From positions 1 through 64,000 of the forward strand of contig NZ_BAAAHE010000052.1 of NCBI RefSeq assembly GCF_039525035.1: 64,000 nt of DNA. Direction: 5' to 3'. The position numbers and the translations under genes were made by a program. Below the pieces are notes generated by a model, which saw only the letters and a program-made list of their open reading frames with translations, was not told the origin of the DNA and made no database searches. This document shows, piece after piece, positions 43,081-47,837 of this stretch; positions within the stretch are counted from its first letter, which is position 1; the number at the start of each line of letters is the position of its first letter. The DNA comes from Sporichthya brevicatena (GTDB lineage: Bacteria > Actinomycetota > Actinomycetes > Sporichthyales > Sporichthyaceae).

Positions 43081-43848
43081 CTAGGCGGCCAGGTAACCGC
43101 CGTCGACCGGCAGCACGGTGCCGTGGATGTTGCTCGCGCCGGGACCGGCGAGGAAGCCGATCGCGGCGGCGATGTCCGCGGGCTCGGAGACGCGGCGACT
43201 GGGTGAGATCTCCGCGAACTCGGCGTGGAGGTCCGTGAAGTCGACGGTGCCCTCGGTCCGGACCGGGCCAGGGCTCACCGCGTTCACGCGTACCCCGGAC
43301 GGACCGAACTCGGCCGCCCAGGACCGGGTCAGCTGGTCGAGCGCGGCCTTGGTCGCCGAGTAGACACCGGCGGCCGGCAGCGCCCGCTGCCCGGCGGCGC
43401 TGCTGACGTTGACGACCGTCCCGGCCCCGCGCTCGACCATGCCGGGCACCAGGGCCTGCACCAGCGCGAACGGCGATTTGAGGTTCACCCCGACCACGGC
43501 GTCGAAGTCGTCGTTGGAGAACTCGACGGTCGAGCCGAAGGGGAAGATCCCCGCGTTGTTGACGAGGATGTCGACCCGCCCGCCGCCGGCTTCGATCGCG
43601 CGCTGGGCGAGATCCCGCGCCCCGTACACGTCGGCGAGGTCGGCAGCGAGGAAGTCGGCCTTCCCGCCCGCCGCACGGATGGTGGCCACGACGGCCTCCC
43701 CGCGCTCGACGTCGCGGCCGGACACCAGGACGTGGGCCCCGAGCTCGGCCAGGTGCTCGGCCGCCGCGCGCCCGATGCCGCTGGTCGCGCCGGTCACGAG
43801 GGCGACGTTGTCGGCGAGCGGGGTGGAGGTGCTGGAACTGCTGGTCAT
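43081..43848 (-). CDS. Short-chain dehydrogenase/reductase
   Basis: Classical SDR of 255 residues. The NAD(P) motif is VTGATSGIGRAA, the structural motif NNAG is in ILVNNAGIFP, and the catalytic Ser and Tyr-x3-Lys are in NVSSAAG and YSATKAALD. The Arg in VLVSGRDVERG favours NADP(H). It is divergent from a TetR gene, with two operator-like palindromes between (43890-43945), so it is probably repressed by that TetR. The substrate is unknown; such pairs often deal with reactive carbonyls or xenobiotics. Confidence 0.92.
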   Translation of the reverse strand: MTSSSSTSTPLADNVALVTGATSGIGRAAAEHLAELGAHVLVSGRDVERGEAVVATIRAAGGKADFLAADLADVYGARDLAQRAIEAGGGRVDILVNNAGIFPFGSTVEFSNDDFDAVVGVNLKSPFALVQALVPGMVERGAGTVVNVSSAAGQRALPAAGVYSATKAALDQLTRSWAAEFGPSGVRVNAVSPGPVRTEGTVDFTDLHAEFAEISPSRRVSEPADIAAAIGFLAGPGASNIHGTVLPVDGGYLAA

Positions 43849-43889
43849 GGGGGTTGGCTCCTCAGCTGGAGGGTGCTGGAATGAGCACC

Positions 43890-43909
43890 ACTGGAATGGA
43901 CGTTCCAGA
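43890..43909. promoter_or_regulatory. TetR operator 1 (SDR-proximal)
   Basis: ACTGGAAT-GGAC-GTTCCAGA is an imperfect 20-bp palindrome with TTCCAGT-type arms, 41 bases before the SDR start. A further half site CTGGAATG lies at 43876. It matches operator 2. Confidence 0.6.
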
Positions 43910-43925
43910 AGTGGCCAACCAGCGC

Positions 43926-43945
43926 ACTGGAACGTTCATTCCAGT
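43926..43945. promoter_or_regulatory. TetR operator 2
   Basis: ACTGGAAC-GTTC-ATTCCAGT is a palindrome with the same ACTGGAA/TTCCAGT arms as operator 1, with centres 36 bases apart. Two such sites in a divergent region point to repression of both the SDR and TetR genes by the TetR protein. Confidence 0.65.
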
Positions 43946-43963
43946 TCTGCGGAGCTGTTTTCC

Positions 43964-44009
43964 GTGGGGGTGACACCCTTTCTGGCGCCAGAAGGGGTGT
44001 CACCCCCAC
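43964..44009. repeat. 46-bp nested palindrome in divergent region (family copy 4)
   Basis: Two 23-base arms (43964-43986, 43987-44009) match with one mismatch. Each contains the core GGGTG-A-CACCC or its complement, as in the elements at 61, 27080 and 36591. Unlike those it lies between divergent genes, 35 bases before the TetR start, so a simple end-of-gene terminator role does not fit. It may shape the TetR leader RNA, insulate the two promoters, or be a protein-binding site. Confidence 0.7.
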
Positions 44010-44044
44010 AGGGACCACCGAGGCGGGAGAGGAGGCAGGGACGG

Positions 44045-44689
44045 ATGAGCGAGCAGCCGGAGGAGTGCACGGCGAGCGGCGGACGCCTGACCGCGCGCGG
44101 CCGGGCGACGCGGGCGCGCATCGTCGAGGCGGCGGCGAAGCTGATGCTGTCCCGGGGCGTCGCGGCAACGAGCATCCCCGACGTCCTCGCCGCCGCGGGG
44201 GTGAGCGCGTCGCAGCTCTACCACTACTTCGCCGACAAGCAGGACCTCGTCCACGCCGTGATCACCCACAGCGCCCAGGACGAGCAGCAGGCGCTCGGGC
44301 AGGTGTCGCTGGACAGCCTCGAGGCCCTGCGCGCCTGGCGGGACGCCGTGGTCGCCCTGCAACAGGAACGGAACTGCGCCGGCGGGTGCGTCATCTCCCT
44401 CGCCGGGGAGATCGCCGACGTCGACCCCGAGGCCCGGGCGCAACTGCAGGCCACGTTCGCGAGCTGGGAGGAGAGCATCCGGCTCGGCCTCACGGCCATG
44501 CAGGAACGCGGTGAGATCCGGGCGGACGCCGACCCGCCCCGGCTCGCCCTCTCGGTGCTCGCGGCCCTGCAGGGCGGGCTCCTGCTGACGCAGGTCCGGC
44601 GGGACACCACTCCGGTCGAGGTCGCACTGGACACCGCGATCGACCACATCGCGACCTTCGCGGCCGACATTTCCGGCGCGCGCGCGTAA
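44045..44689 (+). CDS. TetR-family repressor
   Basis: Repressor of 214 residues. The helix-turn-helix covers about residues 20-66 (RGRATRARIVEAAAKLMLSR, then GVSASQLYHYFADKQDL). The C-terminal domain resembles the TetR_C_11/LmrA-like group and contains NCAGGCVISLAGEI with two close Cys. GGAGAGGAGG precedes ATG 44045. It is divergent from the SDR gene, with two ACTGGAA/TTCCAGT palindromes between them. The start of the next gene lies 2 bases after its stop, so it could also be co-transcribed with the reductase/kinase pair downstream. Confidence 0.9.
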   Translation: MSEQPEECTASGGRLTARGRATRARIVEAAAKLMLSRGVAATSIPDVLAAAGVSASQLYHYFADKQDLVHAVITHSAQDEQQALGQVSLDSLEALRAWRDAVVALQQERNCAGGCVISLAGEIADVDPEARAQLQATFASWEESIRLGLTAMQERGEIRADADPPRLALSVLAALQGGLLLTQVRRDTTPVEVALDTAIDHIATFAADISGARA

Positions 44690-44691
44690 GA

Positions 44692-46398
44692 ATGGCCGGC
44701 GTGACGACGCAACCCTCGTCCGAGGGAACCACCGAGACCGCCGATCGCCCCGTCATCCTGACCGTCGACGACGACCCGTCAGTTTCCCGCGCGGTCGCTC
44801 GGGACCTGCGTCGCCAGTACGGCGAGCGGCACCGGATCGTGCGCGCCGAGTCGGGCGCGGACGCGCTCGCGGCGCTACGGGAGCTCAAGCTCCGCGGCGG
44901 CCGGGTGGCCGTCCTGCTCGCGGACTACCGGATGCCGGAGATGAGCGGCATCGAGTTCCTGGAGCAGGCGATGGACCTGTTCCCCCGCGCGCGGCGCGCT
45001 CTGCTCACCGCCTACGCCGACACCGACGCCGCGATCGCGGCGATCAACGTCGTCGACGTCGACCACTACCTGCTCAAGCCGTGGGACCCGCCGGAGGAGA
45101 AGCTCTACCCGGTCGTCGACGCGATGCTGGAGAGCTACGCCCGCGAACCGGACGCTCCGGCGACGGAGGTGAAGGTCGTCGGCCACCGCTGGTCGCAGCC
45201 GTCGTTCACCGCCCGCGACTTCCTCGCCCGCAATGCGGTCCCCTACCGCTGGTACTCCGCCGACTCCCCCGAGGGCGAGCGGATCCTCGCCGCCGCCGGA
45301 CAGGACGGCGCGACGCTCCCCGTCGTGGTGGCACCGGACGGCCGGGCGCTCGTCGAGCCCGCGATGACCGACCTGGCGAGCGCGGTCGGCCTCGCGACCG
45401 CACCCGTCGACGAGTTCTACGACCTCGTCGTCATCGGCGGCGGCCCGGCCGGGTTGGGCGCCGCCGTCTACGGCGCGAGCGAGGGCCTGCGGACCCTGCT
45501 GGTGGAGAAGCGGGCGACCGGTGGTCAGGCCGGCCAGTCCTCACGCATCGAGAACTACCTGGGCTTCCCTGACGGGGTGTCAGGAGCGCAGCTCGCGGAC
45601 CGGGCCCGGCGGCAGGCCGTCAAGTTCGGCACCGAGATCCTGACGGCGCGCCACGCCGCGAGCCTGACGCCGCGGGGCTCGGCCCTGTCGATCGGCCTCA
45701 GCGACGGCGTCGAGGTCGGCGCCCACACCGTCATCGTCGCCACCGGCGTCTACTACCGCGAGCTCGACTGCCCGGGCGCGCGCGAGCTGACCGGGCGCGG
45801 CGTCTACTACGGCTCGGCGGCCACCGAGGCCGCGAGCTGCGAGGGCCGCGACGTCTACATCGTCGGCGGCGCCAACTCCGCGGGCCAGGCGGCGGTCTTC
45901 TTCGCGGCCCGCGCCAAGTCCGTGACGCTCGTCGTCCGCGGCGCCGGGCTCGAGGCGAGCATGTCGCACTACCTGATCGAGCAACTGCGGGCGATCGAGA
46001 ACGTCAGCGTGCGCACCCACACCGTCGTCGAGCAGGTGCACGGCGAGGGCCACCTGGAGTCGCTCACCCTGCGCTGCACCGAGAGCGGCGTCGCCGAGGA
46101 GGTCGAGGCCAGTCACTGCTTCGTTTTCATCGGCGCGCAGCCGCGCACGGAGTGGCTCGACGGGACGGTCGCCCGCGACCCCCGGGGCTTCCTGCTCACC
46201 GGGCCTGACCTCGTCGTCGACGGCCGCCGCCCGGCGGGCTGGTCCCTCGACCGCGACCCGTGGCACCTCGAGTCCAGCGTCCCCGGCGTCTTCGTCGCGG
46301 GCGACGTCCGCAGCGAGTCGGTGAAACGCGTCGCCTCCGCCGTCGGCGAGGGCGCCATGGCGGTCACCCTCGCCCACCGATTCCTGGCGGGACCATGA
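44692..46398 (+). CDS. Response regulator fused to thioredoxin-reductase-like flavoprotein
   Basis: Protein of 568 residues with three parts. Residues about 20-150 are an intact receiver (ILTVDDDPSV, phosphoacceptor in LLADYRMPEMSG, Lys in YLLKPWD). Residues about 158-240 resemble glutaredoxin (VVGHRWSQPSFTARDFLARN, then LPVVVAPDGRALVEPA), but the CxxC is replaced by WSQPS. Residues about 245-568 are a thioredoxin-reductase fold with FAD motif VVIGGGPAGLGAAVYG, NAD(P)H motif VYIVGGANSAGQAA and C-terminal GVFVAGDVRSE; the redox CxxC is again missing (GSAATEAASCEG). It therefore cannot reduce thioredoxin in the usual way. The partner kinase overlaps its stop codon (ATGA). Confidence 0.88.
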   Translation: MAGVTTQPSSEGTTETADRPVILTVDDDPSVSRAVARDLRRQYGERHRIVRAESGADALAALRELKLRGGRVAVLLADYRMPEMSGIEFLEQAMDLFPRARRALLTAYADTDAAIAAINVVDVDHYLLKPWDPPEEKLYPVVDAMLESYAREPDAPATEVKVVGHRWSQPSFTARDFLARNAVPYRWYSADSPEGERILAAAGQDGATLPVVVAPDGRALVEPAMTDLASAVGLATAPVDEFYDLVVIGGGPAGLGAAVYGASEGLRTLLVEKRATGGQAGQSSRIENYLGFPDGVSGAQLADRARRQAVKFGTEILTARHAASLTPRGSALSIGLSDGVEVGAHTVIVATGVYYRELDCPGARELTGRGVYYGSAATEAASCEGRDVYIVGGANSAGQAAVFFAARAKSVTLVVRGAGLEASMSHYLIEQLRAIENVSVRTHTVVEQVHGEGHLESLTLRCTESGVAEEVEASHCFVFIGAQPRTEWLDGTVARDPRGFLLTGPDLVVDGRRPAGWSLDRDPWHLESSVPGVFVAGDVRSESVKRVASAVGEGAMAVTLAHRFLAGP

Positions 46399-47837
46399 CC
46401 GACATCGCGATCGACACCGGCGTCCGCCTGACACCCGATCAGGTCGGTGGGCTGTTCCTCTTCGAGCACCTCACCGACGAACAGCTCGCCTGGGTCACCG
46501 AGCGCGCCTGGGTGGCTGAGGCGCCGGCGGGCGAAACCCTGCTGCGCGAGGGCGACCCCGCCGAGGTCTTCCTTCTCCTGCTCGAGGGCGAGATCCGGCT
46601 GTGCCAGCGCGTGGGCCGCGACGAGGTCGAGGTGAACCGCAGCAGCACGGTCGGCGCGTACGCCGGCGCGATGCGCGCGTTCGTCCGCGACGAGACCGCG
46701 CAGCGGTACACGGTGTCGGTCCACGTGGTCCAGGACGCCCGCGTCCTCGTGATGCGCGCCGCGACACTCGTCGAGCTGATGCAGACCTGGTTCCCCATGG
46801 CGCTGCACCTCCTCGACGGCATGTTCATCGGAATGCGCAACAGCCAGGAGCGAGTCGGCCGCCGCGAGCAACTGCTCGCCCTCGGCGCCCTGAGCGCCGG
46901 CCTCACGCACGAGCTCAACAACCCCGCCGCCGCCGCGGTCCGCGCGACGGCCGGCCTGCGCGAGCGCGTCGGCACGATGCGCCACAAACTGGCCAAGCTC
47001 GCCGACGACAAGATCGACCGCGACGTGCTGCGGCTGCTCGTCGAGATCCAGGAGGAGGCCGTCACCCTCGCCGCGAAGGCGCCGGACCTCACGGCGTTGG
47101 AGGCGTCCGAGCGCGAGGACGAGCTCACCGACTGGATGGACGACCGCGGTCTCTCCAGCGGCTGGCAGCTCGCGCCGATCTTCGCCGCTGCGGGAACGTC
47201 CGACGCCTGTCTCGCCCGGATCGAGAGCGGCGTGCCGCCCGAGATGCTCGAGCCCGCGCTGCACTGGCTCGCCTCCGCGCTGGAGACCGAGACGCTGCTG
47301 AGCGAGATCACCGACTCGGTCACCCGCATCTCGACGCTCGTCGGCGCCGCGAAGCAGTACTCGCACATGGACCGCACGCCGTACGAGCGCGTCGACATCC
47401 ACCTCGGGCTCAAGAGCACCCTGATGCTGATGGCCGGCAAGGCTGAAGGCGTCCAGATCGTCAAGGAGCTCGACCGCGACCTCCCGCCGGTGCCGGTCTA
47501 CCCGGCCGAGGTCAACCAGGTCTGGACGAACCTCATCGACAACGCCCTGCAGGCGATGAACGGCGAGGGGACCCTGACGGTCCGCAGCTCCCGGGACAAC
47601 GACTTCGTCAAGGTCGAGATCTGCGACACCGGCCCCGGCGTCCCGCCCGAGCTCCAGCTGAAGATCTTCCAGCCGTTCTTCACCACCAAGCCCGTCGGCC
47701 AGGGCAGCGGACTCGGCCTCGACATCTCCTACCGCATCGTCGTCGAACGCCACGGCGGCGACCTCACCGTCTCCTCCGTCCCCGGCGACACCCGCTTCAT
47801 CGTCCGGCTTCCGTTGACGGAGCGCGCGACGCAATAG
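46395..47837 (+). CDS. Cyclic-nucleotide-binding-domain histidine kinase
   Basis: Soluble kinase of 480 residues. The N-terminal domain (about 18-125) is of the CRP/cNMP-binding type (GLFLFEHLTDEQLAWV, then GETLLREGDPAEVFLLLLEG). Then come the dimerisation/phosphoacceptor box LGALSAGLTHELNNP with His near 172, a long insert of about 200 residues, and an intact ATPase domain (NLIDNALQAMNG, CDTGPGVPPE, GSGLGLDISY). There is no membrane segment. It is coupled to the response-regulator/reductase gene by a 4-base overlap, so that protein should be its target. Whether it binds cAMP, cGMP or another ligand is not clear: the phosphate-binding cassette of CRP is not well preserved. Confidence 0.9.
   Translation: MTDIAIDTGVRLTPDQVGGLFLFEHLTDEQLAWVTERAWVAEAPAGETLLREGDPAEVFLLLLEGEIRLCQRVGRDEVEVNRSSTVGAYAGAMRAFVRDETAQRYTVSVHVVQDARVLVMRAATLVELMQTWFPMALHLLDGMFIGMRNSQERVGRREQLLALGALSAGLTHELNNPAAAAVRATAGLRERVGTMRHKLAKLADDKIDRDVLRLLVEIQEEAVTLAAKAPDLTALEASEREDELTDWMDDRGLSSGWQLAPIFAAAGTSDACLARIESGVPPEMLEPALHWLASALETETLLSEITDSVTRISTLVGAAKQYSHMDRTPYERVDIHLGLKSTLMLMAGKAEGVQIVKELDRDLPPVPVYPAEVNQVWTNLIDNALQAMNGEGTLTVRSSRDNDFVKVEICDTGPGVPPELQLKIFQPFFTTKPVGQGSGLGLDISYRIVVERHGGDLTVSSVPGDTRFIVRLPLTERATQ

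Follow-up and report, generated by a model that had tools for sequence, protein, structure and literature searches.

A two-component locus of Sporichthya brevicatena with a thioredoxin reductase-like flavoprotein lacking redox cysteines as its predicted output

Results

Gene organization and conservation of the pair

The first 64,000 nucleotides of contig NZ_BAAAHE010000052.1 of the actinobacterium Sporichthya brevicatena (assembly GCF_039525035.1), hereafter the window, contain two overlapping genes that presumably constitute a two-component system. The first encodes a response regulator in which an N-terminal receiver is followed by a thioredoxin/glutaredoxin (Trx/Grx)-like domain and a thioredoxin reductase (TrxR)-like flavoprotein (hereafter the enzyme), and the second encodes a histidine kinase with a CRP-like sensor domain (Table 1). 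The open reading frames (ORFs), coordinates and four-base overlap given in a first-pass annotation, which was made from the DNA letters and their translations, were all confirmed on the window sequence. The enzyme ORF begins at the ATG at 44692; a clear ribosome site was not seen before it, and translation possibly starts slightly downstream.

Two homologue samples were compared. The main set consists of the 80 best actinobacterial loci, from many genera, whose enzymes are 64-72% identical to that of the window. The wider local alignment holds about 135 sequences, namely ~134 relatives and L002, the genome's own canonical TrxR (G000:C18:44951-45868), and extends to enzymes of Deinococcus, Caballeronia and cyanobacteria (51-56% identity) and to diverged or differently built forms (37-53%). 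Residue conservation refers to alignment A1 for enzyme homologues and A2 for kinase homologues. The dN/dS values of the enzyme and kinase genes were 0.058 and 0.107 against a congener and 0.20 and 0.24 against another genus of the same family, a pattern consistent with purifying selection on both genes.

Table 1. Features of the enzyme and kinase genes in the window.
Feature	Position	Strand	Residues	Basis
Response regulator-flavoprotein gene (receiver, CxxC-less Trx/Grx-like domain, CxxC-less TrxR-like flavoprotein)	44692..46398	+	568 aa	ORF, Pfam, alignment, AlphaFold
Receiver domain	44755..45093	+	22-134	Pfam PF00072 Response_reg, E=1.8e-13
Predicted phosphoacceptor Asp78 (LLADYRMP)	44923..44925	+	78	invariant in A1; placed by receiver homology
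Trx/Grx-like domain (inferred)	45169..45384	+	160-231	AlphaFold secondary structure; full-length AhpF match
TrxR-like FAD/NAD(P) module	45412..46389	+	241-566	PF07992, E=8.8e-33
FAD-binding GGGPAG	45436..45453	+	249-254	sequence; conserved
GSAATEAASC, replacing the redox CxxC	45811..45840	+	374-383	alignment with TrxR
NAD(P)-binding VGGANSA	45862..45882	+	391-397	invariant in A1
Family signature KRVASAVGEGAMA	46324..46362	+	545-557	at the position of the TrxR RQA...GDG motif beside the flavin
ATGA stop/start overlap of the two genes, 4 bases	46395..46398	+		sequence
Cognate histidine kinase gene (CRP-like sensor, DHp, HATPase)	46395..47837	+	480 aa	ORF, Pfam; homologue near partner in 80/80 loci
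CRP/cNMP-type sensor domain	46521..46787	+	43-131	PF00027, 40.3 bits (cut-off 27.5)
Predicted phosphorylated His172 (THELNNP)	46908..46910	+	172	invariant in A2
Helical insert between the two DHp helices	47001..47237	+	~203-281	length conserved over 81 homologues
HATPase_c with N, G1, F and G2 boxes	47508..47819	+	372-475	PF02518, E=7.2e-25

Both redox-active CxxC motifs are missing across the family

The first-pass annotation had reported that both CxxC motifs expected of such an enzyme are missing, and had proposed asking whether this loss is conserved; both points held. In the N-terminal part, WSQPS (residues 167-171) stands where the CxxC would be, and CxxC was absent from the Trx-like domain in all of the ~135 aligned sequences. 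At the former reductase site (residues 374-385), the window enzyme has GSAATEAASCEG, in which Thr378 aligns with the second Cys of TrxR and Glu379 with the catalytic Asp. Across the family, the second Cys is mostly replaced by Thr and the Asp by Glu (T378-E379). Over the redox site, L002 reads GVSWCATCDGFF and the window enzyme reads GVYYGSAATEAASC; L002, which keeps CATC (CATCD), is the only one of the ~135 sequences with a CxxC at this position, so that none of the ~134 sampled relatives retains the motif. A situation in which all homologues keep CxxC and the window enzyme is a decayed copy, as the first-pass annotation had envisaged, was thus not encountered, and decay is ruled out by the low dN/dS together with the family-wide cysteine loss. 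Because the loss of both motifs is conserved, canonical thioredoxin reduction is unlikely, in keeping with the earlier remark that the substrate cannot be thioredoxin in the normal way. A single cysteine, Cys383, is common but not universal: it is present in 121 of the 135 sequences (a count that includes L002) and replaced in Deinococcus, several actinobacterial and cNMP (cyclic nucleoside monophosphate)-fused Paraburkholderia forms.

Pfam Pyr_redox_2 spans residues 243-554, and the FAD and dinucleotide motifs (GxGxx(G/A)) are invariant in A1, the latter kept as GGANSAGQA, so the earlier claim of retained FAD and NAD(P)H motifs stands. A C-terminal KRVASxVGEG at the place of the TrxR RQA motif is a signature of the family. 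The HRRxxxR motif is changed to VRGxxLxxSMSxYL across the family (VVRGAGLEASMS in the window enzyme versus HRRNELRAS in L002), and therefore the 2'-phosphate site is altered; only one of the three Arg residues that contact the NADPH 2'-phosphate in E. coli-type TrxR is left (R416). The window enzyme scored 215.6 bits with the TrxR model TIGR01292 and 166.6 bits with the AhpF model TIGR03140, below the respective cut-offs of 343.45 and 502.9; the family as a whole likewise stays under the TrxR cut-off.

The domain between the receiver and the flavoprotein had been called glutaredoxin-like. The absence of its CxxC was borne out, as described above; its identity found no support in a Pfam scan of this region, which gave no match, and was drawn instead from the AlphaFold model, in which residues 160-231 form a small domain of alternating strands and helices, and from the best full-length Foldseek match of the enzyme, AhpF, whose N-terminus is Trx-like. 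The glutaredoxin-like label thus seems reasonable but is inferred from the model.

The AlphaFold model was computed from 30 homologues with no cofactor (pLDDT 79, pTM 0.57). Structural work on TrxR describes two states, FO and FR. The template modelling (TM) score of the model, taken by target, was 0.82 for 5mh4 and 0.79-0.80 for 5usx and 5vt3, which represent the FR state or contain NADP and FAD, and about 0.60-0.67 for most others. The predicted pose therefore appears to resemble that of FR-state or NADP-bound TrxR, an arrangement that gives the nicotinamide access to the flavin. In the model and in the C-terminal alignment, the chain ends at the last TrxR helix.

The kinase is coupled to an intact receiver

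The receiver had been described as intact. Its acidic triad (D26-D28), T106 and K129 are present, and these residues as well as the phosphoacceptor are invariant in A1. On the kinase side, all of the catalytic boxes (H, N, G1, F and G2) were found in A2. The DHp helices comprise residues 134-202 and 282-325, and the ~80-residue helical insert between them is conserved in length over 81 kinase homologues. HisKA models gave no match to the window kinase, because this insert splits the two helices.

The sensor domain matches PF00027 above the cut-off, and its assignment to the CRP-type fold was therefore upheld. The domain lacks the cyclic-nucleotide signature: the phosphate-binding cassette (Gly-Glu ... 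Arg-Ser/Thr) is absent from the kinase domain, with no conserved Glu or Arg, and column counts revealed an invariant G87-x-Y89-x-G91 (G87-(V/A)-Y89) and Y105 instead. Because the cassette is replaced by these residues, cAMP or cGMP, which the first-pass annotation had proposed to add in a phosphotransfer assay, is poorly motivated and probably not the ligand; we rejected it as the obvious candidate.

A kinase homologue lies near the enzyme gene in all 80 best loci, usually directly downstream, and because the pair is kept in 80/80 loci the pairing is not due to chance. The pair was also found in Deinococcus, Caballeronia, Nostoc and Gloeothece. In the wider sample, 112 loci have an intact receiver, and this kinase type occurs within the surrounding stretch in 111 of them; it occurs in 0 of the 20 loci that have a degenerate receiver, no receiver or a cNMP-type domain in its place. 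This count leaves aside one truncated sequence, and its rows are related rather than 132 independent events. The kinase is thus missing from precisely those loci whose receiver has either lost the phosphoacceptor chemistry or given way to another domain. The architecture and this conserved coupling support the first-pass view of a phosphorelay pair with an enzymatic, non-DNA-binding output, and from these we infer that the kinase passes phosphate to the receiver by His-to-Asp transfer. In Deinococcus aetherius (L089 3035-4432) and Caballeronia (L090 5481-6911), there is a further kinase of this type upstream, which places the enzyme gene between two kinases.

One core behind four front ends

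The CxxC-less core was found in several phyla behind four front ends: an intact receiver, the form with the nearby kinase (111/112); a degenerate receiver (L117-L122, L132) with no kinase; a directly fused cNMP-type domain (L093, L125, L127, L128, L135, L136, L138), again with no kinase; and a core that stands nearly alone (L094, L095, L126, L139, L140). The lineage with the degenerate receiver has lost the phosphoacceptor, Thr or Lys, a pattern of pseudo-receiver control. In an unrooted tree of the core, the receiver forms (support 94/90) and the stand-alone forms (100/100) each fell on one side of a branch, and canonical TrxR was far from the CxxC-less core. The front ends therefore appear to mark distinct lineages of one cysteine-free family. 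The exchange of a CRP-like kinase plus receiver for a fused CRP-like domain suggests that both arrangements gate the flavoprotein by a CRP-like sensor. Among 297 sampled genomes of the host's class, 158 (about half) had a match over most of the TrxR-like part.

A zf-UBP gene is the usual neighbour

A small zf-UBP zinc-finger gene lies close to the pair in 52 of the 80 best loci and is the usual third gene of the locus. It was also found beside stand-alone cores in Burkholderia and Rhodococcus and beside a cNMP-fused form in Streptomyces, and is thus a recurrent neighbour of three of the four front-end forms. Among the sampled genomes of the class, zf-UBP was present in 137 of the 158 flavoprotein-positive and 37 of the 139 flavoprotein-negative genomes (Fisher p about 4e-27, raw as to phylogeny and genome size), a co-occurrence that we take as support only. 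A C-terminal Gly-Gly tail on the enzyme was considered as a zf-UBP ligand and rejected, as no such motif was found in the homologue tails.

Upstream region

A TetR gene (44045-44689) ends two bases upstream of the enzyme gene. It was considered as part of the operon and rejected: in a congener (G012), only 347 bases separate ilvD from the enzyme gene, too few for the TetR gene and a short-chain dehydrogenase/reductase (SDR) gene. The SDR and TetR pair (43081-44689) that stands between ilvD and the enzyme gene in the window represents either an insertion here or a deletion in the congener (L143 5398-5745). The two genes are divergent (SDR at 43081-43848, minus strand; TetR on the plus strand), and between them lie two related operator-like palindromes, CACTGGAATGGACGTTCCAG (43889-43908) and CACTGGAACGTTCATTCCAG (43925-43944), which probably serve as a TetR operator. 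A further 46-base, near-perfect palindrome at 43964-44009 (GTGGGGGTGACACCCTTTCTGGC|GCCAGAAGGGGTGTCACCCCCAC) had 97 matches in the genome, most copies being matched on both strands; it is a REP (repetitive extragenic palindromic)-like interspersed palindrome with dozens of genome sites. Patterns of known actinobacterial stress boxes (DevR, SigR, SigB-like, AdpA) were found upstream of the enzyme gene in no more than 4 of 79 loci. A promoter-like CGATCGAACATACGATGG is conserved ~100 bases before the enzyme start in roughly 30 of the 79 loci, in Streptomyces (for example L030, L032, L038, L059 and L068).

Discussion

Relation to known systems

Response regulators that combine a receiver with a pyridine-nucleotide oxidoreductase are listed as a 'TrxB' class in published censuses (PMC9739842, PMC9953108, PMC5847659). 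The window enzyme has the features of this class (PF00072 plus PF07992, with the receiver intact and a kinase adjacent), including the response regulator-histidine kinase order, and 'Mycobacterium-like' receiver-thioredoxin reductase fusions are grouped with the same kind. In the parts of these censuses available to us, the class is treated at the level of architecture, and the missing CxxC, front-end swapping and zf-UBP neighbour are not noted. Streptomyces coelicolor SCO7298 is catalogued as a TrxB-type receiver protein next to the kinase SCO7297 (PMC9739842), and it is induced by polysulfide (PMC9952706) and by acid shock (PMC2631018), responses that suggest a link with thiol/sulfur or proteotoxic stress but do not single out a reaction. 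We found no functional study of the fusion, of zf-UBP with TrxR or of cysteine-less TrxR-like proteins in the open-access literature. The window pair is thus an unexceptional member of a kind that is already catalogued but uncharacterised; its multi-phylum spread, census listing, zf-UBP neighbour and kinase-receiver dependence had been missed by the first-pass annotation.

Compared with low-Mr TrxR (TrxB), the window enzyme shares the fold, the FAD and NAD(P) domains and ~30% identity, but differs in the redox site, the 2'-phosphate site and its TIGR01292 score, and its genome has a true TrxR (L002). In AhpF, too, one or more Trx-like domains precede a TrxR-like module, whereas the window enzyme has a single Trx/Grx-like domain rather than a tandem, no cysteine pairs and a receiver in front. 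Public records name family members FAD-dependent oxidoreductase or cNMP-domain thioredoxin-disulfide reductase. Proteins with the latter annotation (L093, L135, L136) have the same cysteine-free Trx-like plus TrxR-like core (46-50% identity), and L136 also has a zf-UBP neighbour; they differ in that the signal domain is fused directly, with no kinase, and keeps the Gly-Glu but not the Arg of the cassette. The label 'thioredoxin reductase' is probably wrong for the whole family.

Proposed mechanism and alternatives

We propose, at roughly even chances, that the enzyme is a phosphorylation-gated, disulfide-independent NAD(P)H:acceptor flavoreductase under two-component control. The CRP-like domain of the kinase would sense a ligand, probably not cAMP; the kinase would autophosphorylate on His172 and hand the phosphate to Asp78 of its partner; and the receiver, once phosphorylated, would shift the pose or dimerisation of the flavoprotein to which it is joined. 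FAD would then accept hydride from NAD(P)H, and the electrons would pass to a non-thioredoxin acceptor with no disulfide used; direct transfer from FAD is the simplest reading because the electrons have no disulfide through which to leave. A small molecule, such as a stress electrophile or sulfur species, may be the acceptor, or else a protein, for which the often co-encoded zf-UBP protein is a candidate. In favour of the proposal are the conservation of the pair, the purifying selection, the cysteine loss across the family, the coupling of kinase and intact receiver, the grouping of the front ends in the core tree, the invariant cofactor motifs, the FR-like fit of the model, the zf-UBP linkage and the stress induction of SCO7298. 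Several points weigh against it. Binding of FAD and NAD(P)H is predicted from motifs, and the donor is uncertain, two of the three NADPH-phosphate Arg residues being gone. The FR-like pose comes from one cofactor-free model of moderate confidence, and the family membership of SCO7298 is taken from its census entry rather than from its sequence. As for the zf-UBP gene, it is missing beside the window pair, the only copy in the genome being on another contig (C7:193957), and in 28 of the 80 loci, and it is therefore not an obligatory operon partner.

The protein could instead be a pseudoenzyme or sensor that binds FAD and NAD(P)H without turnover, its redox or ligand state being read via the receiver and acting back on the kinase or through binding of a partner such as the zf-UBP protein. 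The family-wide loss of the catalytic disulfide, the several interchangeable signal domains on one core and the existence of a lineage with a degenerate receiver would all suit such a role, but the conservation of the FAD/NAD(P) motifs, of T378-E379 and of KRVASxVGEG equals that of an active site, and the persistence of stand-alone cores without a signal domain favours an activity of their own; we regard this reading as rather improbable. The first option of the first-pass annotation, a phosphorylation-gated NAD(P)H oxidase that resembles the flavoprotein half of AhpF and produces H2O2 (or water), draws on the reactivity of reduced flavin with O2 where there is no disulfide and on AhpF being the best full-length structural match. 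It is unlikely, since no peroxiredoxin or catalase partner adjoins the enzyme gene in the annotated loci and deliberate peroxide production would be an unparsimonious role for proteins that occur so widely in aerobes.

A thiol/disulfide or sulfane-sulfur role by another route, using partner cysteines (zf-UBP, thioredoxin) or Cys383 alone, is about as unlikely as an oxidase. It is suggested by the frequent Cys383, the Cys-rich zf-UBP proteins, the thioredoxin, ClpB and DnaJ genes beside one cNMP-fused form and the polysulfide induction of SCO7298; however, Cys383 is replaced in the lineages named above, the zf-UBP cysteines are expected to bind zinc, and polysulfide induction does not show a reaction. 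TrxR-like ferredoxin/flavodoxin-NAD(P)+ reductases (FNRs) have the same CxxC-less fold (PDB matches 5xhu, 3lzw, 3ab1) and cover the flavin with a C-terminal extension that has a flavin-stacking residue. That the window enzyme is such an FNR under two-component control is very improbable, as it seems to lack this extension, is far more similar to true TrxR (E 1e-44 versus 1e-18) and has no ferredoxin or flavodoxin gene nearby.

Implications

In a tentative extension of the flavoreductase proposal, to which we give a low probability, such disulfide-independent NAD(P)H flavoreductases would form a new class, switched on by receiver phosphorylation or by a directly fused CRP-like domain, and would deliver electrons to a dedicated zf-UBP protein or modify it. 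If this were true, the thioredoxin reductase label would have masked a redox signalling module that bacteria of several phyla conserve. In print, the S. coelicolor member has been handled as a thioredoxin reductase (trxB3), yet the sampled family is uniformly without the residues that define that activity. A single core that carries a receiver, a degenerate receiver, a cNMP-type domain or nothing constitutes a natural experiment on the gating of a flavoenzyme by signal domains, and a response regulator that is itself a redox enzyme would let the kinase steer metabolism directly, without transcription.

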